Shown here one piece after another: positions 2 to 10,842 of a DNA stretch of 10,842 nucleotides (position 1 is the stretch's first letter; every line of letters starts with the position of its first letter). A model generated the notes under the pieces. The model was not told the DNA's origin and did not search any database. It saw only the letters and a list, made by a program, of their open reading frames with translations. The translations under genes and the position numbers were made by a program. The stretch covers positions 1 to 10,842 of the forward strand of contig CAIQEX010000532.1 of assembly GCA_903870955.1 (NCBI GenBank). Reading direction: 5' to 3'. Source of the stretch: an uncultured beta proteobacterium (GTDB taxonomy: Bacteria > Pseudomonadota > Gammaproteobacteria > Burkholderiales > Burkholderiaceae_C).

Positions 2-766
2 GCGCCCAAGGAATGCTTTGGCTGTCACGAAAAAGACGATAAGCACAAGACCAATCTGGGCAAAACGTGCGCTGACTGCCATAACGAGCAGGACTGGAAG
101 AACACCGAAGGCCGCTTCAAACACGACAAGACCAAATTCCAGTTGCGCAACGCCCATGCCGCGCCCACCGTGAAATGCGTGGCCTGCCACAAAGACCTGA
201 CCAGTTTCCGCAACACCCCGCTGTTGTGCATAAATTGTCACAAGAAAGACGACAAGCACGAAACCCAGCTAGGTGATAAATGTGAATCCTGTCACAACGA
301 CAAGGCCTGGAAAGGCACTACTTTCAACCATGGTAAATCTCGCTTCCCGCTGACCGGTCAGCACATTGTTGTGGAATGCAAAAAGTGCCACGAAACAATG
401 CGTTACAAAGACGCACCCCGCGACTGCTATTCATGCCATAAAAAGGACGACAAGCACAAGCAAGTGTTCGGAACGCGCTGCGAATCGTGTCACAACACCC
501 GGGCCTGGACGACGTGGTCTTTCAACCACGATACCCAGACCAAGTACCGCCTGGAGGGCTCTCACGTCAAGGTGACCTGTGAAAGCTGTCACAAACAGGT
601 AGCACCATCGGGTAAGGACGCTGCGCCTTTGGGAAGTGCTTGTGTAACGTGCCACCGCAAGGACGATGTGCACAATGGCGGCTTCGGCCCCCGCTGTGAC
701 CAGTGCCACCAGGTGGAAAGTTGGAAAAAAGTGAAGACGCGTGTGGGTCAGGTGCCGGATAAATGA
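2..766 (+). CDS. Multiheme c-type cytochrome with three-heme modules, 5'-truncated
   Basis: The reading frame enters from upstream at base 2 and ends at TGA 764-766, leaving 254 residues; start and any signal peptide are outside. Eleven CXXCH sites are visible: CFGCH, CADCH, CVACH, CINCH, CESCH, CKKCH, CYSCH, CESCH, CESCH, CVTCH, CDQCH. They fall into modules of 66-72 residues with three hemes each; the first hemes of successive modules begin at 14, 227, 425 and 641. Each module reads roughly CxxCHxKDDxH, then G(x)2CxxCHNxxxW, F(N/K)H, and GxHxxxxCxxCH. The last module stops after its second heme with a short basic tail. Three non-heme His per module (KDDKH, FNH and one before the third heme) match three hemes, suggesting bis-His ligation. 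The Lys/Asp-rich modules differ clearly from the neutral downstream protein. Role inferred: periplasmic or extracellular electron carrier working with the giant cytochrome 40 bases downstream. A more exact family cannot be assigned without the N-terminus. Confidence 0.95.
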   Translation, partial: APKECFGCHEKDDKHKTNLGKTCADCHNEQDWKNTEGRFKHDKTKFQLRNAHAAPTVKCVACHKDLTSFRNTPLLCINCHKKDDKHETQLGDKCESCHNDKAWKGTTFNHGKSRFPLTGQHIVVECKKCHETMRYKDAPRDCYSCHKKDDKHKQVFGTRCESCHNTRAWTTWSFNHDTQTKYRLEGSHVKVTCESCHKQVAPSGKDAAPLGSACVTCHRKDDVHNGGFGPRCDQCHQVESWKKVKTRVGQVPDK

Positions 767-807
767 ATACGAAATCAAAATACATCAATGTGCGAGGGAG
801 CCGCTAA
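763..807 (+). promoter_or_regulatory. Possible coupling mini-ORF (14 codons) linking the two cytochrome genes
   Basis: An ATG at 763-765 overlaps the stop of the upstream gene (ATGA, 763-766). It opens a frame of 14 codons (MNTKSKYINVRGSR) ending in TAA at 805-807, which overlaps the ATG of the giant cytochrome (TAATG, 805-809). A weak AGGTG at 750-754 lies about 8 bases upstream of this ATG. Such stop/start overlaps are a known way to couple translation by reinitiation. That this one is translated is inference; in a 40-base gap it may be chance. Confidence 0.25.
794..800 (+). promoter_or_regulatory. Ribosome binding site of the giant cytochrome
   Basis: The purine-rich GAGGGAG ends six bases before the ATG at 807. 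It is the strongest Shine-Dalgarno-like sequence near the gene start and fixes that start, since the encoded N-terminus is a good signal peptide. The site lies within the small upstream reading frame 763-807. Confidence 0.8.
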
Positions 808-932
808 TGGCCAAGCTGATTAACCTGCTTGCGCGACTGCGTGGGCACATAGGGCGACCAAGCTTTGCTGGTCTTTTGGCAATGCTGCTTGTGGCAACGT
901 TGCAGTTCAGTGCCACGCAACCCGCACAAGCC
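807..932 (+). other. Sec signal peptide of the giant cytochrome
   Basis: Residues 1-42 show a basic n-region (K3, R10, R12, R17), a hydrophobic core around residues 20-32 (FAGLLAMLLVATL) and a likely signal peptidase I site after AQA (residues 40-42), giving a mature start QQVGADF. No Cys lies near the cleavage site, so it is not a lipoprotein signal. Export by Sec is required for c-type heme attachment in the periplasm. Confidence 0.88.
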
Positions 933-3900
933 CAACAGGTAGGCGCTGACTTTGATCACAGCAGTACCGGCTATGTACTCAACGCGCAGCACCAGAACGT
1001 GCGTTGCGAAACCTGCCACGTCAAGGGTGTTTTCAAGGGCACGCCCAAAGACTGTGAGTCATGCCACGGTTGGAATAATCCGCGCGCCACGTTCTCGGTC
1101 ATGCCGGTAACCCACATCCCGACGGGCAACGCCACGTGTGAAAGCTGCCACCAAGCCAATATGGCGCAGTTTGTGGACGCCACCCGCACTTTTAATCACG
1201 CTATGGTGAGATCACTGACCTGTGTGAACTGCCATAGTTCCAACAACCCGCACCCCAATGTGCGGACCAATCCTTCGGATGCCACCCACCAAGCCGTTAT
1301 GGCGCAAGGCCAGGCATGCGACCAGTGCCACACCACGATTGTGTTTACGGGCCCCAAGAAGCCAAGCAATCACATCCCCATCTCTCCTCTGGCATCCTGT
1401 GCCTCGTGCCACACCAACGCCGACTATGGAGTGATGCCAAGCATTACGGCCATTCACGCCAATGCGCCATCGTCGAACACCAATTGTGCTGATTGCCATA
1501 GCGCTTCAAATGCGGCCAAGTTTGCAACTGCCAAGATGGTGCCGCCCTTGATGGCGCCACCCACGGGCCACGTGGCCATGAATAACCAGGCTTGCGAAAC
1601 CTGCCACGTGGGAGCGATAGGCAGTCTGCAGTTACCCGTCGTTGATGGCGCCAAATTTAGCGGCTCGGCCTTTAGCCATGCCGGCATCACAGGAGGCTGT
1701 GCCTCGTGCCACGCTGCGAATGCCGTGGTCGGTTTTGGCATTAACAACATCATCCAGATGCCGTGGGCTGGTTCCCCGGCGCATATCCCAACGACAGCAG
1801 CATGCGAGTCTTGCCACAAGAGTGCGCCGTCTGGTTTGGTGCCTGGTAATGCCATCAACGCGATTGGTGCAACAGAGTTCATGTCGCCACCTCCTGCAAA
1901 TGCGGATATCCATGCCAACGTGACGTCCGGCTGCGCGGCCTGCCACGGCAACGCCATGGACTGGCAGGGCATGGGGCTGTATCCCCGCACTTCGACTTTC
2001 ACCACCATTGGGGCCAGCTACTTTGGGTTCCAGACCCGCCCGGGCGCTGGTGGGCCATACGCACTGGCCGATGCAAGTCATGCGGCCGTGCTCGGTGGTC
2101 GGGGCGCCACGGACGATTGTTCCCAGTGCCACACGGTTGCTGCCGGATTTGGAGCGCCGTCCAAGGGCTCCAACCACATTCCAACAGTCGCGCCATGTAG
2201 CAATTGCCACAAAGGCGCAGACTACAAGGCGATGCCAGCCGTATACGACATTCACACCAATGTCGATACGACATCGTGCAAGGCCTGCCACGCTGACACC
2301 ACCACGTACCCGATGACGCCGGTCATCACTGCACCGCCGACAGGGCACGTTAACTTTGTGTCGACGATGGATTGCCAGACCTGCCACGTAGGGCCCAACT
2401 CGAGCATTCAGTCGGTAGCCAGCATTTCCAACGGTTCCAATTTCAAGAACTCCGCCTATGTGCACAACGGACCGGCCACCGGTTGTGACACCTGCCACGG
2501 AACGGGTGCTGCAACAGCCAACCTCTACGGTGTAGTGCCCAAAAACATTGCCTCTCTGGCTCCGGGACACTTGCCTATCAACAGCGGAGCAGCTTGCGAG
2601 GCTTGCCACAAATCCGCACCCGGCGCGACACAGATCCCGTTGACGGGCGCCATTGGCGGAAATCCGACCTTTGCGGGCGCGATTTTCAACCACAGTTACA
2701 CCTCAGCAACCTGTGCCTCATGCCACGGTCAGGGCGTGAGTGGCTCCAGTTTTGCGGGTAGCCCCAACATTCTGGTCATGCCTTCTTCGGCTGCACCGAG
2801 TGACACTTCCCACATTCCGACCACGGCCGCATGCGAGGCTTGCCACGGCAGCACCTATCCCGCGGGAGACTATTCGCTGAGTGCAACCAAATCGGTACCC
2901 GGCAGTGGCTTCTTGGCGCTCAAGCCATCCCCTGCCCAGATCCATAACAACTCCAGCGCGAGTTGCTCCACCTGCCATGAAGTGGGTAGCTGGGTTAGTG
3001 TCGGCCCGGCTCAGTATCCGCGTACGACCACCTCACCCTATGTGTCCGGCGCGTATTTCGGCTTTCAGGTTCGACCCACCACCACCGGCGCTGGCCAATA
3101 CTCAATTCAGGACAACACACCGCACCCTGTTACGGGCGAGTGCTCCGATTGCCACAGCAGCTATGTGGGTGGTTTTGCCGCTCCGGTGAAACCCACCGGA
3201 CATATTCCGGTCACTACGTCGGGTTGCGCCTCGTGCCACAAGGACCCCAGTTACACGGTCATGCCGGCGATTGCCGACATTCACAACGCCAGCAATATCG
3301 ATTTGACGCAAAAGTGCCAGGTCTGCCACGCCGATACCACCACCTACCCGATGGTGCCGGTTATCAAGGCGCCGCCGACGGATCACATTGCCCAAGCTAA
3401 TCTGGATTGCAAGGATTGCCACGTTGGCCCTAACTCCAGCATCTTGTCTGTGGCGACGATCAGCAATGGATCCAGCTTCAGAAATTCTGCCTACGTGCAC
3501 GATGGTACGGGCGTTGGCTGTGATACTTGCCACGGTTCGGGTGCGGCCACGGCCAATCTGTATGGCGTGGTGCCCAAGAACATTGCAACGCTTGCACCAG
3601 GGCATTTGCCGATCACCAGCGGAACGGCTTGCGAGGCTTGCCACAAAGCCAGTCCGGGAGTAACCCAGGTGCCATTGACGGGCGCCATCGGCGGTTCACC
3701 GACCTTTGCTGGTGCGACCTTTAACCACAACGCGACCACCGTCAGTTGTGCAACCTGCCATGGTCAGGGAATCAGCGGTTCCAGCTTTGCGGGCAGCCCG
3801 AGCATCGTTGTAATGCCAGCCTCCAGTACGCCCGGACCGAACTCGCACTTGCCGTCAACGGCGGATTGCCAGACCTGCCACACGGTTAAGCCCTCGGGCG

Positions 3901-6900
3901 ATATCTCTGCGAACGCGCCTGCCGCAACGACGTTCAAGACTTCGTTGCCTACGGCCGCCAACATCCACGCCAACACCACCACAGGTTGTTCTGGTTGCCA
4001 TGAAAGCGGCACCTGGCTCGGTATGGATTTGCCTTTGTATAAAGCAAACCCAACCGGTACGACCTATGTTTCAGGGACTGCCTACCACGGCTTCCAGACC
4101 CGTCCGACATTGAGCGGCGGACTCAACTCGATAGCTGACCCCACGCCACACCCTGTAACGGGTGAGTGCTCGAACTGCCACGGCAGCTATAGCGCCGCAG
4201 GTTTTGGCGCGCCGGCGAAACCCGCAGGTCACATTCCGACGATTACATCGGGTTGCGCTAGCTGCCACACGAGTTCTGACTATTCCGTGATGCCGGCGAT
4301 TTCTGATATCCATAACTCCAGCAATATCGATTCGTCATCGTGCAAGGTTTGCCACGCCAACACCACAACCTACCCGATGTCGCCGGTCATCAAGGCACCG
4401 CCGACGGGACACGTTGACCCGGGTACCCTGGATTGCCAGGATTGCCACGTTGGGCCTAATTCCAGTCTGGCCTCGACGACGATTGTCAATGGTGCCAACT
4501 TCCAAAACTCCGCCTATGTGCACAACGGAACCGCAACTTGCGCTAGCTGCCACGGCTCTGGCGCTGCACCCATCTTTGGCGTGGTACCCAAGAATATTGC
4601 CAGCTTGACGCCCGGACATTTGTCCGTATCGGTCAAACCTGAATGCGGCAGTTGCCACACTGCACCCGGTTCGACCCAGTATCCCGTCAGCGGTGCTATG
4701 TCCGGCATGCCTACTTTCGCCGGCGGCACCTTCAACCATGACGCGACCAACGCCAGTTGTGCGGCTTGCCATGGACAAAGCGTCAAGCTGTCGAATTTTG
4801 CAGGTAACCCGACCATCCTGCTGATGCCGCAATCGAGCATTCCGGGCACTGACGCGCACATTCCTACTACCGCCGCCTGTGACGTGTGCCACGGTAGCGC
4901 GCCAACCGGCTCCTTCGATTTGAATAACACCAAGAGCGTGGGCGCCAGTGGATTCAGGACGCCAGCACCTGGAACCCAGGTGTTGCATGCCAACGTATCC
5001 GCGAGTTGCTCCACTTGCCACGAATCCGGCAAGTTGTGGGCAGGGGTGGAGCCAGCCTTGTACCCGCGTGACGCGACCTTCCCGGGCACGCCACCTTACA
5101 AAGGATTCCAGACCCGACCCAACCTGAGCGGATTTACCTACTCATTGCCCGATGGCTCGCACCCCGCCTCAGGCGAGTGTTCGGGTTGCCACAGTGTGGC
5201 GGCTGGATTTGGCCCGGTTGCCAAACCCACAAACCACATTCCGGTCACTACAGCGGGCGATGCCAACTGCTCCTTGTGCCACAAGAGCGCTGATTACACG
5301 GTGATGCCGAGCCTGTCGGACATCCACACCCATGCGGGCAAGACGCTGTGTTCTGATTGCCACACCACCACCAACGCTGCCAAATACCCGATGACGCCAG
5401 CGATCATGGTGCCGCCCGCCGGTCACATTGACCAAGGGACTTCGGGCTGTGCAGATTGCCACGTGGGAACCGGTTCGAGCATGACATCCGCCACGCCGGT
5501 GCCGGATGGCGCGCTGTTTAAAGGTTCGTTGTTCAATCACAGCGGCATTGCGGTTGCCTGTGCGATATGCCATGGCTCAACCGTCCCGAAGACTGGCTTC
5601 TATGGCGTGGTGCCCAAGGCCATTTCCAACTTGCAGCCTAAGCACATGCCAACTACGGACAGCTGTACCGACTGCCACACCAACAGTGTGCCGACAGGTC
5701 TGGTGCCGTCGAATGGCATGAAGACATTTGCCGGGGCGCAGTTCAGTCACAACGGCATTTCGTCGGGTTGTGACGCCTGCCACGGTCCCAACATCGTCCC
5801 GGGAAGCTTTGCGGGCAGCCCGAGTATTGTGGTGATGCCTGCGACCAGTCCAGCCGGCCCTCAGGCGCACATTCCGTCATCCACGACCTGCGAAACATGC
5901 CACAGCCGTAGCCTGCCGTCCGGACTTTTGGCCGGCAGCGCCAGCAAGCTAACGGGTCCCGGAACGGGCTTCCAGGTGGGGGCACCCAATTCGAAGGAGA
6001 CGCACACCGGCGTAAACGGCAGCTGCGCAAGCTGCCATGGCGACGGAATGCAGTGGATTGGCATGAGTCTGTACCCAAGCCTGCCGTCGTCCACGTATGT
6101 GGCGCATGCCAACTACACTGGATTCCAGACGCGTCCGGGTGCGGGCGGTCCTTTTGCAATCAACGACTCGACCCACCCCGGTGCCGGTCTGGATTGCTCG
6201 AACTGCCACACCAGCTTTACCAGTTTTGGTCCGCTGACCTTGCCTGGCGGGCATATTCCAGTCGCAACTTCCGCGGTCTGCGGTGACTGCCATACCAACT
6301 TCTCGACACCGCCGACGAGCCTGACCGCCATTCACGCCAAGGCGCCGTCCACGACTACCAATTGCGTGCAATGCCACGACGCAACCAACGCCAAAGACTT
6401 CGTGCTGATCAATCCGATCGTAGTTCCCAGTGTGGATCACGTTCCGATGGTTGGCGCAAGCTGCGAGAAATGCCATATGGGCGCCAACTCCAGCATCAAG
6501 GGTGGAGCGGTGAAAGATGGAGACAAGTTTGCCGGTTCACTGTTCGACCATAACGGTGTCAGCTCGGGCTGCGATGTCTGCCATGGTGTCAATGTGGATA
6601 GCACGACATTTATTGGTCTTCCAAACATCAAGGCCCTCACGTACACGGGCGCCCTGCCGCACATGAAGGTTGGTACCAACGGTTGCGAAGCCTGCCACAC
6701 CAACAGCGTGCCGGTTGGACAAGTGCCAGCTGCCAACATGAAGACGTTTGCCGGTGCCAGCTTTACGCATAGCAATAACGCGACCGCGTGCGAAGTCTGC
6801 CATGTGCCAAGCCCAGGAGTTGCCACATTCATGGGTAATCCCAAAATTGTGGGTATGCCGCCGACCAGTCCGTCTGGCTCGCAGGCACACATTCCTTCAT

Positions 6901-9900
6901 CCACCACGTGCGCAAGCTGTCACAGTGGCAGTACGCCCGCAGGCCTGATAGCAGGAAGCGCAACCAAGGCCATTGGCAGTACCGGCTTCAAGACTTCGTT
7001 GCCAGACTCCGCCACGATTCACGCCAACTCTGACACCACCAGTTGCAACGTCTGCCATGAGAGCGGTAAAGACTGGGCCAGTGTCGGCACGTACACGCGC
7101 GGACCGCAAAACACGCCGTTGGCCGGCACCCTGTTTACCGGGTTCCAGACGCGTCCAATTTCTGGAGGTGGAACCTATTCGGTCAACGACGCTGCCCACG
7201 TCGGAGTGGGTGTTGGGGATTGCAGCAACTGCCATACGGGCTTCACTGGCTTTGGCCCGCCGTCGTTGCCCGCCAACCATATTCCCTATTCCACGGCGAA
7301 CACAACCACCTGCGGTAGTTGCCATAAGGTGGCCGACTATTCCGTCTTCCCGGCCTATGCGGACATTCACAAAAATGCCCAGTCGACGACGACCAACTGT
7401 GTGCAATGCCACAGCGCTACCAATGCTGCGACCTACAACCTGCTTTCTGGCATGAAAGGCAAACTGGTGGCACCTGCGACCACGGGTAACAAGCACATCG
7501 ATATGGCCGCTTTGAGCTGCGAAACCTGCCACGTGGACAGCCTGACGGGTCTTACCACCACCACGACCAGTTTCGCGGGCGGTAAGTACAGCCATCAAGG
7601 GGTGACGACGGGATGCAATGCTTGCCACGTCAGTGGAACCGGTCCGTTCCAGGGTACGTTGAATATCATTGTGATGCCGCCAACCACGGGAACCGGATCA
7701 TCCACATCACATTTGCCGACCTCCACGACCTGTGAGGATTGCCATGCAGGCAGTACACCGTCGGTCTTGCTGCCGGCGGTTACAACCAAGACGGCATCGG
7801 CCAATGATTTCGCATTGCCCGTGCCTACCGCCGCGATGAACCACAAGAACGTCACGGGTTCCTGCTCCACGTGCCATGACGCGGGAGGTACCAGCACCGC
7901 CGATGTCTGGATGAACATGGCTGCCTACCTGGGTCAGACCAACGTAAACGGACCTGCGCCGTACAAGGGATTCCAGACGCGTCCTAACGCGGCCGGAGGC
8001 ACCTTCAAAGCGAAAGATGCAATTCACCCAGCGACCGGTGATTGCTCCACGTGCCATACCAGCTTTACGGACTTTGCGTCAGCCGTGCTACCGCAGTTCC
8101 ACATTCCCACGAGCACGCTGGTTTGTACGAACTGCCATACGACCAGCAATTACGCGACGATGCCCACGCTGACGAACATTCACAAGTACGCGCCAGCTAA
8201 CGCTCAGCAGGGCAACTGCCAGCTTTGCCACAGCGCAGCCAATGCGGCGACCTACATGCAACTGGCAGGGTTGGCTGGAAAGCTGAAGTACCCGACAAAC
8301 GTTGGCTCAGCCAACGGCCACGTCGACATGGCCGGCCTGGACTGTGTGAATTGCCACGTGGGAACGGGTTCGAGCATTGCAGCCAATGCCTTGCCTGTCC
8401 AGAATGGAGCGCTCTTTACCAACTCGGCCTATATCCATACCGGTGTCACTGCGAATTGCGCTTCTTGCCATGGTGACGGGGTGACTGCCCTGAGTTTCCT
8501 GGGTCAGACGCCCAAACCCATTCCAAACGGGCACGTGCCAAATAACGGATCACAAGACTGTGTGGCCTGCCACACCACGGCCCCAGCTGGTTTGATTCCG
8601 TACGCAGGTGCAACGGCAGCCGCTCAGACCTTTGCCACTACCAAGTACAGCCACAACGGTATTACTTCAAACTGCCAGGCCTGCCACGCTGGAGGCACGA
8701 CCTTTTTGGGCATTACGAACAATGTGGTCTTAAGCAACTTCAGTACCCATATTCCGACGACCCTGGCTGCTGCCGCCAAGCCGGATTGCGCGAGCTGCCA
8801 TTTGGGCAGCACACCTTCTGCGTTGGTCACATGGACCAAGGGCGCTGTGCCGAAAACCGCTGGCAATACGGGGTTCAAGACGCCCATTCCAACTGGCTCC
8901 ATGATTCACGCGAATGTGACTTCAGGTTGTATCGGATGCCATGAAAAGGGTATGTCCTGGCTCGAAGTTGACACCACTTTCTACAACCGTACGCCTACGG
9001 TCAAGACGGCAGGTGCCAATTATCTTGGTTTCAATACCCGACCTAGCGCCAACGGCACGGGCTTCTCGATTCCTGATGCCAACCACCCCACGACGGGCGA
9101 CTGCTCAAATTGCCACGGAAGCACCGCGAGCTTCTCGGTGTCTGCGGTACCGACCAATCACATTCCGTATGCGACAACGGCAACTTGCGACAAATGCCAT
9201 ACCAACATCAACCTGGTTGCAGGCAATGCCGACTTCTCGCAAATGCCGACCTTGACGAATATCCACGCGTACGCTCCGTCTACGACGACCAACTGCGCGC
9301 AGTGTCACGATTCGGCTAACGCGACCAAATACAACGCAGGTGGCGTCGTGATCAAGTCGCCTGCGAGCGTAACGAAGCACGTGCCCTATGGAACGGTAGC
9401 CTGTGAGACCTGCCACACAGGACTTACCCCCGTGGTGGAAACCACCAAGTTTTCGGGCGGCAAGTTCAGCCACTCCGGTATCACAACCGGTTGCGCAACC
9501 TGCCATGGCAATGGTCTGGCGGCAAACAACTTCTATGGCATTACGAACCTGATTGCGATACCGACCACGGCGACCATGGGCGCTTCTTCGCATATTCCAT
9601 ACACGGCAGCCTGCGAAGCCTGCCACACCGGTACCGGTGCTATCCCCAGTGCACTGCTGTCTGTGACAGGAGCGCCCGCCGTTTCGTCCGGATTCAGGAC
9701 GCCAGCACCTACTGGCGGCAATATCCACAGTGGTATCAGCGCAGGTTGCAATAGCTGCCATGACACCAACTACGTGTGGAAGGGCGTGGATCTGTACCCG
9801 ATCAACCCGAGCGCCATCACCGCCAACGGCAGCTACACCGGCTTCCAGACGCGACCTGTTGCATCTCCGGTGACCACGGCGCTGGGCAAGTTTGGTATTA

Positions 9901-10842
9901 CGGACAGTGCGCACCCGACCACGGGCGATTGCTCACAGTGCCATACCAGTACTACCGCATTCAGTGGCGTGGCCAAACCGACTGGACACATGGTCACCAC
10001 GGCGAGCTGCGCCTCCTGCCACTCTGCGACCGATTACTCGGTGGTTGGCTTGGGATTGCCTGGAAAATTGACGACCATGCACACGGCCTTCAACATTACA
10101 GCCGCCCCGATTACTGCGGCAACCGCAGCCAACATGGCCAGCCAGAAATGTGGTTCCTGCCACGCCACCACGGCCAAATTTGCGGGTTGCGCCACGTCGA
10201 CCGCCTGCGCATCGCCGCCACCGACTACCTGGCAGGCAACCAACACGGGTCTGCACCCATTGCACGTGCCAATCGGTACGACGACAGCCCTGACGGTGGA
10301 CTGCAGCGGTTGCCATGCTTCGGTCACGGCATTCTCTGGCGTCAACATGAAGAACGCGACCATGCACACCAGCGTGAACGGCACGGCCAAGGTTCAATGC
10401 CAAGCCTGTCATGAGAATGGCATGGCTTGGTATGGCGTGACAAACTTGGTGGTGCGACCCTCAATCACAGGTACTACGTCCACCGGCAAGACGGGGCTAA
10501 CCAAGCACACCGGTAGCAAGGCAGCGCCTAACGATTGCAGCAACTCGGGTTGCCATAGCTATTCCAATCCGAATGGCATGCGTGGTCTGCCGCGCCCTGT
10601 CATGCGCAGTGCCTTGGTGAGCCCGAACTTGGGCCGTGCCAAACCCAATGCCCCGACCACCAAACCGTCGCGCGGCAGTCTGGGTAACAGCTTCGACCAC
10701 AAGGGCGTGGCGGCAGGCAAGTGCAAGGATTGCCACGACGGAAAGAGTGCGTCGGGCATGCCCGCACGCCACCTGATGGTGACCACCTCCTGCGACATCT
10801 GCCACCGTCCCACCACCTGGTTGCCGGCGCAGTTCAACCACA
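807..10842 (+). CDS. Giant repeat-built multiheme c-type cytochrome, at least 87 hemes, 3'-truncated
   Basis: The frame runs from ATG 807 to the window end without a stop: 3345 complete codons, with the C-terminus missing. A signal peptide (residues 1-42) is followed by a four-heme cap (hemes 1-4, residues 67 to about 143), ten repeat units (hemes 5-84, from residue 171) and a C-terminal region (hemes 85-87, from residue 3244). I count 86 CXXCH sites and one CX4CH (CSNSGCH). There is about one non-heme His per heme, mostly in HIP, GHV/GHL, IHAN and FNH/YVH contexts, suggesting bis-His hemes throughout. Outside the heme sites I saw only two Cys (residues 3128 and 3134). The chain is rich in Ala, Gly, Ser, Thr and Pro and poor in charge. 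There is no lipobox, and no membrane segment after the signal peptide in the visible part. Heme content greatly exceeds MtrC/OmcA-type cytochromes (about ten hemes). Role inferred: long-range extracellular electron conduit, probably in one operon with the upstream cytochrome. Localisation and redox partner are unknown. Confidence 0.96.
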   Translation, partial: MAKLINLLARLRGHIGRPSFAGLLAMLLVATLQFSATQPAQAQQVGADFDHSSTGYVLNAQHQNVRCETCHVKGVFKGTPKDCESCHGWNNPRATFSVMPVTHIPTGNATCESCHQANMAQFVDATRTFNHAMVRSLTCVNCHSSNNPHPNVRTNPSDATHQAVMAQGQACDQCHTTIVFTGPKKPSNHIPISPLASCASCHTNADYGVMPSITAIHANAPSSNTNCADCHSASNAAKFATAKMVPPLMAPPTGHVAMNNQACETCHVGAIGSLQLPVVDGAKFSGSAFSHAGITGGCASCHAANAVVGFGINNIIQMPWAGSPAHIPTTAACESCHKSAPSGLVPGNAINAIGATEFMSPPPANADIHANVTSGCAACHGNAMDWQGMGLYPRTSTFTTIGASYFGFQTRPGAGGPYALADASHAAVLGGRGATDDCSQCHTVAAGFGAPSKGSNHIPTVAPCSNCHKGADYKAMPAVYDIHTNVDTTSCKACHADTTTYPMTPVITAPPTGHVNFVSTMDCQTCHVGPNSSIQSVASISNGSNFKNSAYVHNGPATGCDTCHGTGAATANLYGVVPKNIASLAPGHLPINSGAACEACHKSAPGATQIPLTGAIGGNPTFAGAIFNHSYTSATCASCHGQGVSGSSFAGSPNILVMPSSAAPSDTSHIPTTAACEACHGSTYPAGDYSLSATKSVPGSGFLALKPSPAQIHNNSSASCSTCHEVGSWVSVGPAQYPRTTTSPYVSGAYFGFQVRPTTTGAGQYSIQDNTPHPVTGECSDCHSSYVGGFAAPVKPTGHIPVTTSGCASCHKDPSYTVMPAIADIHNASNIDLTQKCQVCHADTTTYPMVPVIKAPPTDHIAQANLDCKDCHVGPNSSILSVATISNGSSFRNSAYVHDGTGVGCDTCHGSGAATANLYGVVPKNIATLAPGHLPITSGTACEACHKASPGVTQVPLTGAIGGSPTFAGATFNHNATTVSCATCHGQGISGSSFAGSPSIVVMPASSTPGPNSHLPSTADCQTCHTVKPSGDISANAPAATTFKTSLPTAANIHANTTTGCSGCHESGTWLGMDLPLYKANPTGTTYVSGTAYHGFQTRPTLSGGLNSIADPTPHPVTGECSNCHGSYSAAGFGAPAKPAGHIPTITSGCASCHTSSDYSVMPAISDIHNSSNIDSSSCKVCHANTTTYPMSPVIKAPPTGHVDPGTLDCQDCHVGPNSSLASTTIVNGANFQNSAYVHNGTATCASCHGSGAAPIFGVVPKNIASLTPGHLSVSVKPECGSCHTAPGSTQYPVSGAMSGMPTFAGGTFNHDATNASCAACHGQSVKLSNFAGNPTILLMPQSSIPGTDAHIPTTAACDVCHGSAPTGSFDLNNTKSVGASGFRTPAPGTQVLHANVSASCSTCHESGKLWAGVEPALYPRDATFPGTPPYKGFQTRPNLSGFTYSLPDGSHPASGECSGCHSVAAGFGPVAKPTNHIPVTTAGDANCSLCHKSADYTVMPSLSDIHTHAGKTLCSDCHTTTNAAKYPMTPAIMVPPAGHIDQGTSGCADCHVGTGSSMTSATPVPDGALFKGSLFNHSGIAVACAICHGSTVPKTGFYGVVPKAISNLQPKHMPTTDSCTDCHTNSVPTGLVPSNGMKTFAGAQFSHNGISSGCDACHGPNIVPGSFAGSPSIVVMPATSPAGPQAHIPSSTTCETCHSRSLPSGLLAGSASKLTGPGTGFQVGAPNSKETHTGVNGSCASCHGDGMQWIGMSLYPSLPSSTYVAHANYTGFQTRPGAGGPFAINDSTHPGAGLDCSNCHTSFTSFGPLTLPGGHIPVATSAVCGDCHTNFSTPPTSLTAIHAKAPSTTTNCVQCHDATNAKDFVLINPIVVPSVDHVPMVGASCEKCHMGANSSIKGGAVKDGDKFAGSLFDHNGVSSGCDVCHGVNVDSTTFIGLPNIKALTYTGALPHMKVGTNGCEACHTNSVPVGQVPAANMKTFAGASFTHSNNATACEVCHVPSPGVATFMGNPKIVGMPPTSPSGSQAHIPSSTTCASCHSGSTPAGLIAGSATKAIGSTGFKTSLPDSATIHANSDTTSCNVCHESGKDWASVGTYTRGPQNTPLAGTLFTGFQTRPISGGGTYSVNDAAHVGVGVGDCSNCHTGFTGFGPPSLPANHIPYSTANTTTCGSCHKVADYSVFPAYADIHKNAQSTTTNCVQCHSATNAATYNLLSGMKGKLVAPATTGNKHIDMAALSCETCHVDSLTGLTTTTTSFAGGKYSHQGVTTGCNACHVSGTGPFQGTLNIIVMPPTTGTGSSTSHLPTSTTCEDCHAGSTPSVLLPAVTTKTASANDFALPVPTAAMNHKNVTGSCSTCHDAGGTSTADVWMNMAAYLGQTNVNGPAPYKGFQTRPNAAGGTFKAKDAIHPATGDCSTCHTSFTDFASAVLPQFHIPTSTLVCTNCHTTSNYATMPTLTNIHKYAPANAQQGNCQLCHSAANAATYMQLAGLAGKLKYPTNVGSANGHVDMAGLDCVNCHVGTGSSIAANALPVQNGALFTNSAYIHTGVTANCASCHGDGVTALSFLGQTPKPIPNGHVPNNGSQDCVACHTTAPAGLIPYAGATAAAQTFATTKYSHNGITSNCQACHAGGTTFLGITNNVVLSNFSTHIPTTLAAAAKPDCASCHLGSTPSALVTWTKGAVPKTAGNTGFKTPIPTGSMIHANVTSGCIGCHEKGMSWLEVDTTFYNRTPTVKTAGANYLGFNTRPSANGTGFSIPDANHPTTGDCSNCHGSTASFSVSAVPTNHIPYATTATCDKCHTNINLVAGNADFSQMPTLTNIHAYAPSTTTNCAQCHDSANATKYNAGGVVIKSPASVTKHVPYGTVACETCHTGLTPVVETTKFSGGKFSHSGITTGCATCHGNGLAANNFYGITNLIAIPTTATMGASSHIPYTAACEACHTGTGAIPSALLSVTGAPAVSSGFRTPAPTGGNIHSGISAGCNSCHDTNYVWKGVDLYPINPSAITANGSYTGFQTRPVASPVTTALGKFGITDSAHPTTGDCSQCHTSTTAFSGVAKPTGHMVTTASCASCHSATDYSVVGLGLPGKLTTMHTAFNITAAPITAATAANMASQKCGSCHATTAKFAGCATSTACASPPPTTWQATNTGLHPLHVPIGTTTALTVDCSGCHASVTAFSGVNMKNATMHTSVNGTAKVQCQACHENGMAWYGVTNLVVRPSITGTTSTGKTGLTKHTGSKAAPNDCSNSGCHSYSNPNGMRGLPRPVMRSALVSPNLGRAKPNAPTTKPSRGSLGNSFDHKGVAAGKCKDCHDGKSASGMPARHLMVTTSCDICHRPTTWLPAQFNH
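933..1316 (+). other. N-terminal four-heme cap domain
   Basis: Hemes 1-4 (CETCH at 1005, CESCH 1053, CESCH 1137, CVNCH 1221) precede the regular repeats. The opening DFDH, GYVLNAQH, CETCH, FKGTP, CESCH pattern resembles the N-terminal region of other long extracellular multiheme cytochromes, recalled from general family knowledge. Four non-heme His (FDH, AQH, THIP, FNH) match the four hemes, with one extra in NPHPN. The spacing of hemes 3-4 does not match the a-i order of the later units, so this is a distinct cap. Confidence 0.75.
1317..2117 (+). repeat. Repeat unit 1, seven hemes (5-11)
   Basis: Residues 171-437 (267 residues). Sites: a CDQCH, b CASCH, c CADCH, d CETCH, g CASCH, h CESCH, i CAACH; e and f are absent. 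Seven non-heme His match seven hemes (THQ, NHIP, AIHAN, GHV, FSH, AHIP, DIHAN). The unit ends with the GFQTRP box at 2025-2042. Confidence 0.85.
2118..3140 (+). repeat. Repeat unit 2, nine hemes (12-20)
   Basis: Residues 438-778 (341 residues). Sites a-i: CSQCH, CSNCH, CKACH, CQTCH, CDTCH, CEACH, CASCH, CEACH, CSTCH. Nine non-heme His match nine hemes. Closest to unit 3: both carry HVGPNSS after site d, ANLYGVVPKNIA after e and PLTGAIGG after f. The terminal box is GFQVRP at 3060-3077, with Thr replaced by Val. Confidence 0.88.
3141..4166 (+). repeat. Repeat unit 3, nine hemes (21-29)
   Basis: Residues 779-1120 (342 residues). Sites a-i: CSDCH, CASCH, CQVCH, CKDCH, CDTCH, CEACH, CATCH, CQTCH, CSGCH. 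Nine ligand-type His plus one extra in the AYHGFQTRP box (4089-4106). With unit 2 it is the best conserved pair, consistent with tandem duplication. Confidence 0.88.
4167..5177 (+). repeat. Repeat unit 4, nine hemes (30-38)
   Basis: Residues 1121-1457 (337 residues). Sites a-i: CSNCH, CASCH, CKVCH, CQDCH, CASCH, CGSCH, CAACH, CDVCH, CSTCH. It keeps HVGPNSS, NSAYVHNG and GVVPKNIASL from units 2-3 but has diverged at site f. Nine non-heme His. GFQTRP box at 5103-5120. Confidence 0.88.
5178..6194 (+). repeat. Repeat unit 5, nine hemes (39-47)
   Basis: Residues 1458-1796 (339 residues). Sites a-i: CSGCH, CSLCH, CSDCH, CADCH, CAICH, CTDCH, CDACH, CETCH, CASCH. Nine ligand-type His plus an extra one in DIHTHAG. 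After site f it switches from the PLTGAIGG type of units 2-3 to NSVPTGLVPSNGMKTFAGA, shared with unit 6. GFQTRP box at 6120-6137. Confidence 0.88.
6195..7220 (+). repeat. Repeat unit 6, nine hemes (48-56)
   Basis: Residues 1797-2138 (342 residues). Sites a-i: CSNCH, CGDCH, CVQCH, CEKCH, CDVCH, CEACH, CEVCH, CASCH, CNVCH. Nine ligand-type His, with one extra in VAHANY at the end of unit 5. Site a is preceded by an HPGAGLD variant of the usual HPxTGE/D. GFQTRP box at 7140-7157. Confidence 0.88.
7221..8042 (+). repeat. Repeat unit 7, seven hemes (57-63)
   Basis: Residues 2139-2412 (274 residues). Sites: a CSNCH, b CGSCH, c CVQCH, d CETCH, g CNACH, h CEDCH, i CSTCH. Sites e and f are missing, together with about 70 residues and their two His. 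The missing block is replaced by a Thr-rich link (LTTTTTSFAGGKYSH). GFQTRP box at 7968-7985. Confidence 0.87.
8043..9101 (+). repeat. Repeat unit 8, nine hemes (64-72)
   Basis: Residues 2413-2765 (353 residues), the longest unit. Sites a-i: CSTCH, CTNCH, CQLCH, CVNCH, CASCH, CVACH, CQACH, CASCH, CIGCH. Nine non-heme His. Extra residues lie between c and d (YMQLAGLAGKLKYP), a stretch resembling the same place in unit 7. The box reads GFNTRP at 9027-9044. Confidence 0.87.
9102..9929 (+). repeat. Repeat unit 9, seven hemes (73-79)
   Basis: Residues 2766-3041 (276 residues). Sites: a CSNCH, b CDKCH, c CAQCH, d CETCH, g CATCH, h CEACH, i CNSCH. It lacks e-f in the same way as units 1 and 7; seven non-heme His match. 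The link after d (KFSGGKFSHSGITTG) matches unit 7. GFQTRP box at 9840-9857. Confidence 0.87.
9930..10535 (+). repeat. Degenerate repeat unit 10, five hemes (80-84)
   Basis: Residues 3042-3243 (202 residues). Sites: a CSQCH, b CASCH, c CGSCH, then CSGCH and CQACH, the last followed by the W-containing pattern of site i. About four sites are missing compared with a full unit. It contains two non-heme Cys (CATSTAC, 10188-10208), the only ones I found in the protein, and a degenerate terminal box (LVVRPS). It appears to be a transition between the repeats and the C-terminal region. Confidence 0.75.
10536..10842 (+). other. C-terminal heme region with one CX4CH site (hemes 85-87), truncated
   Basis: Heme 85 is CSNSGCH at 10536-10556, with four residues between the cysteines. 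A heme-free basic/proline-rich stretch follows (residues about 3252-3295: RGLPRPVMR, RAKPNAPTTKPSR). Then come CKDCH at 10722 and CDICH at 10791, in a pattern SFDHKG, CKDCHDG, ARHLMVTT, CDICHRPTTW, PAQFNH. That pattern resembles a widespread two-heme repeat (FDHxG, CxxCHNG, HxxT, CxxCHxTxxW, FxH) near the ends of extracellular multiheme cytochromes, recalled from general knowledge. It would predict more copies beyond the window edge. Confidence 0.72.

Follow-up and report, generated by a model that had tools for sequence, protein, structure and literature searches.

The window analysed here, a stretch of 10,842 nucleotides that makes up the whole of one contig (C532) of a draft genome (787 contigs, 86.84% complete, 5.58% contaminated), carries a giant multiheme cytochrome gene from a Rhodoferax-like bacterium. 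In our reading, its product is quite probably the extracellular cytochrome predicted for a porin-cytochrome conduit of the PCC3 type. The protein is built as a covalent concatemer: 11 hemes in the N-terminal part are followed by eight modules of 7 or 9 hemes each and by a C-terminal part in which about 11 sites are expected, all in a single chain. The host genome falls in the genus of Rhodoferax lacus (G077; NZ_QFZK01000017.1, with the same frames). The features of the window are the following.

2..766, + strand: predicted periplasmic multiheme cytochrome, 3' part (254 codons, 11 CXXCH; open at the 5' end of the contig)
807..10841, + strand: giant multiheme cytochrome (3345 codons, 86 CXXCH and one CX4CH; 3' end cut by the contig)
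807..932, + strand: putative N-terminal signal peptide, assigned by eye (cleavage after AQA, residue 42)
807..2027, + strand: N-terminal part, up to the first anchor (signal peptide plus 11 hemes; FDHSSTGY follows the signal)
2028..3062, + strand: module 1 (345 aa, 9 hemes)
3063..4091, + strand: module 2 (343 aa, 9 hemes)
4092..5105, + strand: module 3 (338 aa, 9 hemes)
5106..6122, + strand: module 4 (339 aa, 9 hemes)
6123..7142, + strand: module 5 (340 aa, 9 hemes)
7143..7970, + strand: module 6 (276 aa, 7 hemes)
7971..9029, + strand: module 7 (353 aa, 9 hemes)
9030..9842, + strand: module 8 (271 aa, 7 hemes)
9843..10841, + strand: C-terminal part (7 CXXCH and the CX4CH; incomplete)
10536..10556, + strand: CX4CH heme motif CSNSGCH at residue 3244, at a conserved position

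The original prediction had read one continuous frame with 86 CXXCH and one CX4CH, without a stop in 10 kb. This frame is indeed present at 807-10841 (3345 codons) and is open throughout, but the absence of a stop is explained in part by the end of the contig, which removes the 3' end of the gene. The full length, which the original prediction had proposed to establish, can be approached from relatives: in all 17 compared at this end, picked from the 120 homologues listed, the protein continues for 85 to 93 residues with exactly three more CXXCH, so that a complete cytochrome of about 3434 aa and about 90 sites is expected, the missing 3' end corresponding to some 89 codons with three CXXCH. 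A DNA search of the host genome for this missing part returned no gap filler, the sole match being the end of the contig itself.

Chance or composition is ruled out as the source of the heme motifs by 500 residue shuffles of the giant frame, which averaged 0.45 CXXCH and never exceeded 3. The CX4CH is probably a real heme site as well: such a motif lies within the last 300 residues in 30 of the 60 homologues examined (of the 120 listed), and its distance from the C-terminus is 188 to 195 residues in all 25 of these 30 for which it was listed, as in the giant cytochrome. The protein has 38 aa per heme, with linkers rich in small residues (A, T, G and S account for 44%), and a mass of 3.9 kDa per heme, which places it in the 'peptide minimized' electron-transfer class of multiheme cytochromes, defined by less than 5 kDa per heme (PMC7096707).

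It had also been expected that this protein would be among the most heme-rich that one could meet. Our homologue search, in which only proteins of 0.55 to 1.75 times the query length were eligible, retained 176 proteins from 2575 scored candidates, and the counts given here cover the 120 listed. At least 25 of these have 86 CXXCH or more, 8 exceed 113 and the maximum, which the original prediction had suggested looking up, is 134; the giant cytochrome is thus not extreme, and a record heme number is ruled out by these homologues and by a published case with 113. The richest is P0090 (5296 aa, 134 CXXCH and 14 CX3-4CH), along with P0119, P0087, P0088 and P0114 (131, 129, 129 and 123 CXXCH, the last a Bradyrhizobium protein).

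The modules are delimited by an anchor motif, GF[QN][TV]RP, which was read off the window and whose nine occurrences cut the giant cytochrome into the parts listed above. With a looser form of this motif, at least four anchors are found in 74 of the 120 listed homologues, and 406 of the 435 intervals between anchors in these 74 proteins contain exactly 7 or 9 hemes (300 with 7, 106 with 9). Among the other 29, 23 hold 14, 16, 18, 23 or 27 hemes, all sums of 7s and 9s, which fits with missed anchors; six depart from the rule: two have 11 hemes, and four, all from P0071, have 6. The N-terminal part is also recurrent, an FDH..TG[FY]-type start being present in 53 of the 74 anchor-bearing homologues, some of which are perhaps truncated. 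The most regular example is P0003 (4275 aa, 113 CXXCH in total), with 13 successive 7-heme modules of 267 to 268 aa; identity from module to module is 61 to 79% in this protein versus 40 to 60% in the window. Fewer than four anchors were found in 46 of the 120 homologues, including the most heme-rich ones (P0090, P0119, P0087, P0088 and P0114 all lie outside the 74), so the repeat rule of these five heme-rich relatives probably differs from that of the 7- and 9-heme modules. The idea of a design in which repeated units are joined covalently, rather than assembled from subunits, is supported by the modules and their anchors. A concatemer of exact 7- or 9-heme modules in a PCC3-type cytochrome may be new: we found no description of fixed modules of this kind in the parts of the literature covered. 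The ratio of nearly one additional histidine per heme, and the apparent N-side duplication of modules next to a partner with a constant 24 hemes, also seem to be new.

Boundaries as regular as these, each with a conserved GF[QN][TV]RP anchor, might also be expected if the giant protein were a polyprotein precursor, cut after export into 7- or 9-heme cytochromes. We know of no precedent for polyprotein processing among c-type cytochromes of this class, and hold this scenario to be very unlikely.

An artefact of assembly should also be considered, in which shorter cytochrome genes were merged or the number of repeats came out too high or too low. The genome is a fragmented draft with some contamination, and neighbouring parts of the cluster sit on other contigs. 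However, the giant gene is repetitive at the protein level and not at the DNA level: TRF detected 0 tandem arrays in the window, exact direct repeats of 25 bases or more are absent from the giant gene, and its best ungapped 150-base self-match reaches 78% identity, so that it contains no long DNA repeat able to confuse an assembler. The module order 9-9-9-9-9-7-9-7 is shared by the window, P0001, P0002 and P0014, which are respectively 85%, 53% and 41% identical to the giant cytochrome for the last three, and in the genus-mate G061, assembled as a single contig of 5,486,892 bases, the homologue is a 2742-codon frame with 72 CXXCH at the same place. A collapsed or expanded repeat region had been named in advance as an observation that would overturn the single-chain reading; these sequence checks gave no sign of one, they make repeat misassembly unlikely, and we regard an artefact of either kind as extremely improbable.

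The genes surrounding the giant gene argue for a conduit. Frame 2-766 is the end of the predicted periplasmic 24-heme partner: the 3' end of contig C435 overlaps the opening 128 bases of the window, inexactly, with 123 of 128 positions identical, and the 15 CXXCH on that contig plus the 11 in the window, minus 2 shared, give 24, the number also found in the six genus-mate genomes read (6/6). Against the HmcA model (NF045713), this incomplete frame scores 32.9 bits, below the cut-off of 400. Before this cytochrome, C435 carries a gene of inner-membrane type, 70% identical to an R. lacus gene, whose 297-aa product has two WX3HX13H and one SGXXG motif and, by a crude Kyte-Doolittle scan, about five hydrophobic segments (18-37, 54-75, 86-111, 116-134 and 266-297). 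Eight loci were scanned for these motifs, one of them the more distant L022 and the others from seven genomes of the genus, and all eight have them. The inner-membrane protein also has an identical counterpart, P0121, on four contigs; the longest, at 41,781 bases, may carry the cluster in full, with the 3' end that the window lacks.

In the host genome, the porin-like gene lies on a contig separate from the window (C473), where its N-terminus is cut by the contig end. It is 84% identical (81% by blastp) to the gene directly after the homologue in L021; Pfam gave only a weak TPR match, and the PDB only weak TPR designs. The order inner-membrane protein, 24-heme cytochrome, giant cytochrome, porin-like gene is unbroken in 5 of 6 genus-mates (G061, G053, G073, G032 and G077), with porin-like genes 55 to 82% identical to that of L021; in G014, the contig stops inside the giant gene and another contig carries the gene end and the porin. 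The same gene order occurs in a more distant proteobacterial MAG (L022:8288-17519), with a 21-CXXCH gene, a 60-CXXCH gene and a porin-like gene of 28% identity; at 1748 aa, or about 29 aa per heme, the 60-CXXCH protein is heme-denser than the giant cytochrome.

Further downstream on C473 are DUF2844 and DUF3443 genes (L057, 5208-5708 and 3740-5212, both on the - strand) and a pair of cytochrome c assembly genes, of which one is truncated where the contig ends. Genes close in size to the two DUF genes also come after the porin in L060, L063 and L064, and the DUF proteins could be an uncharacterised part of the system. Cytochrom_C_asm genes stand a few genes downstream of the porin in L057 and in L064 (G014; CcmB in L064), so that machinery for heme attachment may adjoin the giant cytochrome.

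PCC3 conduits are described in He 2017 (PMC5566968) as having a conserved inner-membrane protein of about 300 aa with five transmembrane helices, two WX3HX13H and SGXXG, a periplasmic multiheme cytochrome (MHC) with about 21 to 27 heme sites, and an extracellular MHC with a median of 34 sites and up to 85, at 22 to 39 aa per heme, rich in A, T, S and G and made of repeats with at least one heme each, with a porin gene next to it. The cluster studied here presents an unusually heme-rich MHC gene (86 CXXCH and one CX4CH, counted in the sequence), a 24-heme MHC whose periplasmic location is predicted, and the 297-aa product of the C435 gene with its motifs.

How the giant cytochrome varies in length can be followed within the genus, where heme counts are 56 (G032), 72 (G061), 78 (G073) and 90 (G053); the G014 gene, cut by a contig end, has at least 81. 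The R. lacus gene is split into two overlapping frames with 4 and 67 CXXCH (L019:4612-5301 and 5192-12733, on NZ_QFZK01000017.1; the DNA is identical in L062), by either a real frameshift or a sequencing error. A module tree was built with FastTree from eight chosen proteins, leaving out the last two modules of P0014 (missed anchor), and was read for topology only. Modules 4 to 8 of the window group by position with modules of P0002. Modules 1 to 3 of P0002 fall together, those of the window cluster among themselves and with P0001, a close relative, and module 1 of P0019, and modules 1 to 5 of P0005 and of P0014 group within each protein; module 5 of P0005 and module 6 of P0019 do not fit their position. 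Module duplication or gene conversion on the N side seems the simplest reading of this tree. Length would then evolve one module at a time, for the most part near the N-terminus; the periplasmic partner stays at 24 hemes in the genus. At E <= 1e-25, module 3 was found in the host genome only, among 300 genomes of the order (1/300), and is therefore rare outside the genus at this threshold; a search with the C-terminal 847 aa in 149 relatives gave 16 matches, including the host genome, several of them weak.

From this we advance the proposal, which we hold tentatively and at a little less than an even chance, that the giant cytochrome is a covalent wire whose length is set by the gene, with whole modules gained or lost on the N side and both ends and the 24-heme partner kept fixed. 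If so, extracellular reach would be an evolvable and countable trait, with 56 to about 90 hemes within the genus and a maximum of 113 CXXCH across the 74 homologues that bear anchors.

The distribution of histidines bears on the nature of the hemes. Exactly one other histidine occurs since the previous motif for 78 of the 86 CXXCH of the window, mostly 6 to 8 residues upstream; seven have two or three extra histidines before them and one has none. Exactly one other histidine likewise precedes 7822 of the 8832 CXXCH in the 120 listed homologues, and when 44 module pairs of up to 18 hemes each are aligned, 13 histidines outside the motifs are invariant. Because nearly every heme motif has one further histidine just upstream, most hemes of the giant cytochrome probably have bis-His ligation and serve electron transfer rather than catalysis. 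Structural modelling was less informative: an AlphaFold2 model of modules 1 and 2, computed from a 44-row alignment with no hemes modelled, was of middling confidence (mean pLDDT 67.3, pTM 0.41) and had little regular structure, and with this model Foldseek ranked no PDB chain and no heme path was seen. The single giant sequence had no PDB match at E 0.001. The best PDB profile match of the modules was 3ov0 chain A (E 2.6e-7), a weak match possibly driven by the heme motifs; we take this entry to be the 12-heme GSU1996 of G. sulfurreducens, made of four triheme c7 repeats.

In the conduit that we propose, electrons would be exchanged between the quinone pool and the inner-membrane protein with its two histidine pairs, between the latter and the 24-heme periplasmic cytochrome, between this cytochrome and the outer-membrane porin, between the porin and the chain of about 90 hemes outside the cell, and finally between this chain and an external electron donor or acceptor. 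The location of the giant cytochrome, its heme loading and the stacking of its hemes into one wire are what we infer from the gene and its neighbours. For the 86-heme protein of A. oligotrophica, a chain of 630 A passing through the porin has been extrapolated (PMC7096707); scaled by 90/86, this estimate would give a chain of about 66 nm, and the span of tens of nanometres suggested in the original prediction is a reasonable inference.

A different role may be imagined, in which some 90 hemes at the surface chiefly store electrons, perhaps in a compact fold, distance being secondary. A storage role is among the published ideas on PCC3 (PMC10734462), linkers rich in small residues at 38 aa per heme would permit a compact fold, and the scarcity of regular structure in the two-module model points the same way. 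Yet a conduit is what one would expect from modules regularly placed in line, each with its conserved anchor, and from a porin-cytochrome cluster with a fixed 24-heme partner, and storage and conduction are not mutually exclusive; a function primarily as a capacitor therefore seems rather unlikely to us.

The direction of electron flow along the proposed conduit is a separate question. We lean slightly towards uptake, with reduced iron or minerals as the source: iron oxidizers are where PCC3 was originally reported, although few known iron oxidizers have it (PMC5566968), and the host genome also encodes RuBisCO. Neither point is decisive. A 10-CXXCH gene beside an MtrB/PioB-family porin in the host genome can be read in favour of uptake as well. 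The same conduit may instead carry electrons out of the cell, to respire Fe(III), Mn(IV) or humics, a possibility that we take seriously even if we would place it somewhat under one half. For this reading, the genome contains that same 10-CXXCH gene and porin, together with a fragment that matches the MtrC/MtrF domain model; flow through Mto/Mtr conduits can be reversible (PMC10734462); and PCC3 expression in S. lithotrophicus ES-1 does not track Fe(II) oxidation, both clusters being lower on Fe(II) than on thiosulfate (PMC8788666). In the proteome table of PMC12016527, the extracellular PCC3 subunit of ES-1 stands at 0 in all eight columns, magnetite being among the conditions, and for strain CL21 a significant change was confined to one PCC3 copy, in its inner-membrane gene. 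The ES-1 and CL21 data count against a simple iron-oxidase role; in the passages of the literature covered, we found no tested function for PCC3.

PCC3 conduits are present in many iron-cycling and other Proteobacteria (PMC5566968), and the family described here offers natural length variants: genus-mates have 56, 72, 78 and 90 hemes, and one homologue further away has 113. Since heme number varies by whole modules and the rest of the conduit is unchanged, conduction over tens of nanometres along a single chain becomes directly testable. The 7-heme module is a potentially tractable unit for structure work; as of a 2019 review, no structure of a 7-heme cytochrome was available (PMC7096707).

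Several known systems can be compared with this protein. The nearest is PCC3 itself (He 2017, PMC5566968), whose extracellular MHC resembles the giant cytochrome in heme count, few residues per heme, richness in A, T, S and G, and repeats, and whose cluster has, like that of the host, an adjoining periplasmic MHC of about 21 to 27 hemes and an inner-membrane protein of about 300 aa with WX3HX13H; it also has a porin, for which the porin-like gene on C473 is the candidate counterpart. This likeness is one of published description. What sets the giant cytochrome apart is that its repeats resolve into fixed 7- and 9-heme modules, with about 90 sites in all. The PCC3 class, very high heme counts, heme-bearing repeats and the idea of length are already in print: the MHC of Agromonas oligotrophica S58 has 85 sites according to PMC5566968, given as 86 in PMC7096707, those of Gallionellaceae have 10 to 35 hemes with long, mostly linear models (PMC10734462), and those of Leptothrix relatives 10 to 57. 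A Ca. Methanoperedens MHC with 113 hemes (PMC7082337) shares the extreme heme number, a likeness by description; it is archaeal.

The original prediction had taken MtrC, OmcA and OmcS as its reference, and so missed the better match, a PCC3 cluster with a predicted extracellular subunit. MtrCAB and MtoAB conduits would fulfil the same kind of task, and the Pfam MtrC/MtrF domain II/IV model matches parts of the giant cytochrome. Membership of the OmcA/MtrC decaheme family (TIGR03507) was rejected at 125 bits for a cut-off of 209.3, as was that of the DmsE decaheme family (TIGR03508) at 83.4 bits for 192.2. Elsewhere in the host genome, a separate 10-CXXCH gene (324 aa) precedes the MtrB/PioB-family porin on contig C750 (G000; L066), and the fragment matching the MtrC/MtrF domain model is on contig C513 (L002). 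These genes probably belong to a second conduit.

GSU1996 (3ov0) is also a single chain of tandem cytochrome repeats, but with 12 hemes in triheme units. The OmcS, OmcE and OmcZ filaments, proposed long-distance electron carriers, are polymers of separate small multiheme subunits. They and the giant cytochrome both repeat multiheme units, and only the giant cytochrome would join these units in one chain.
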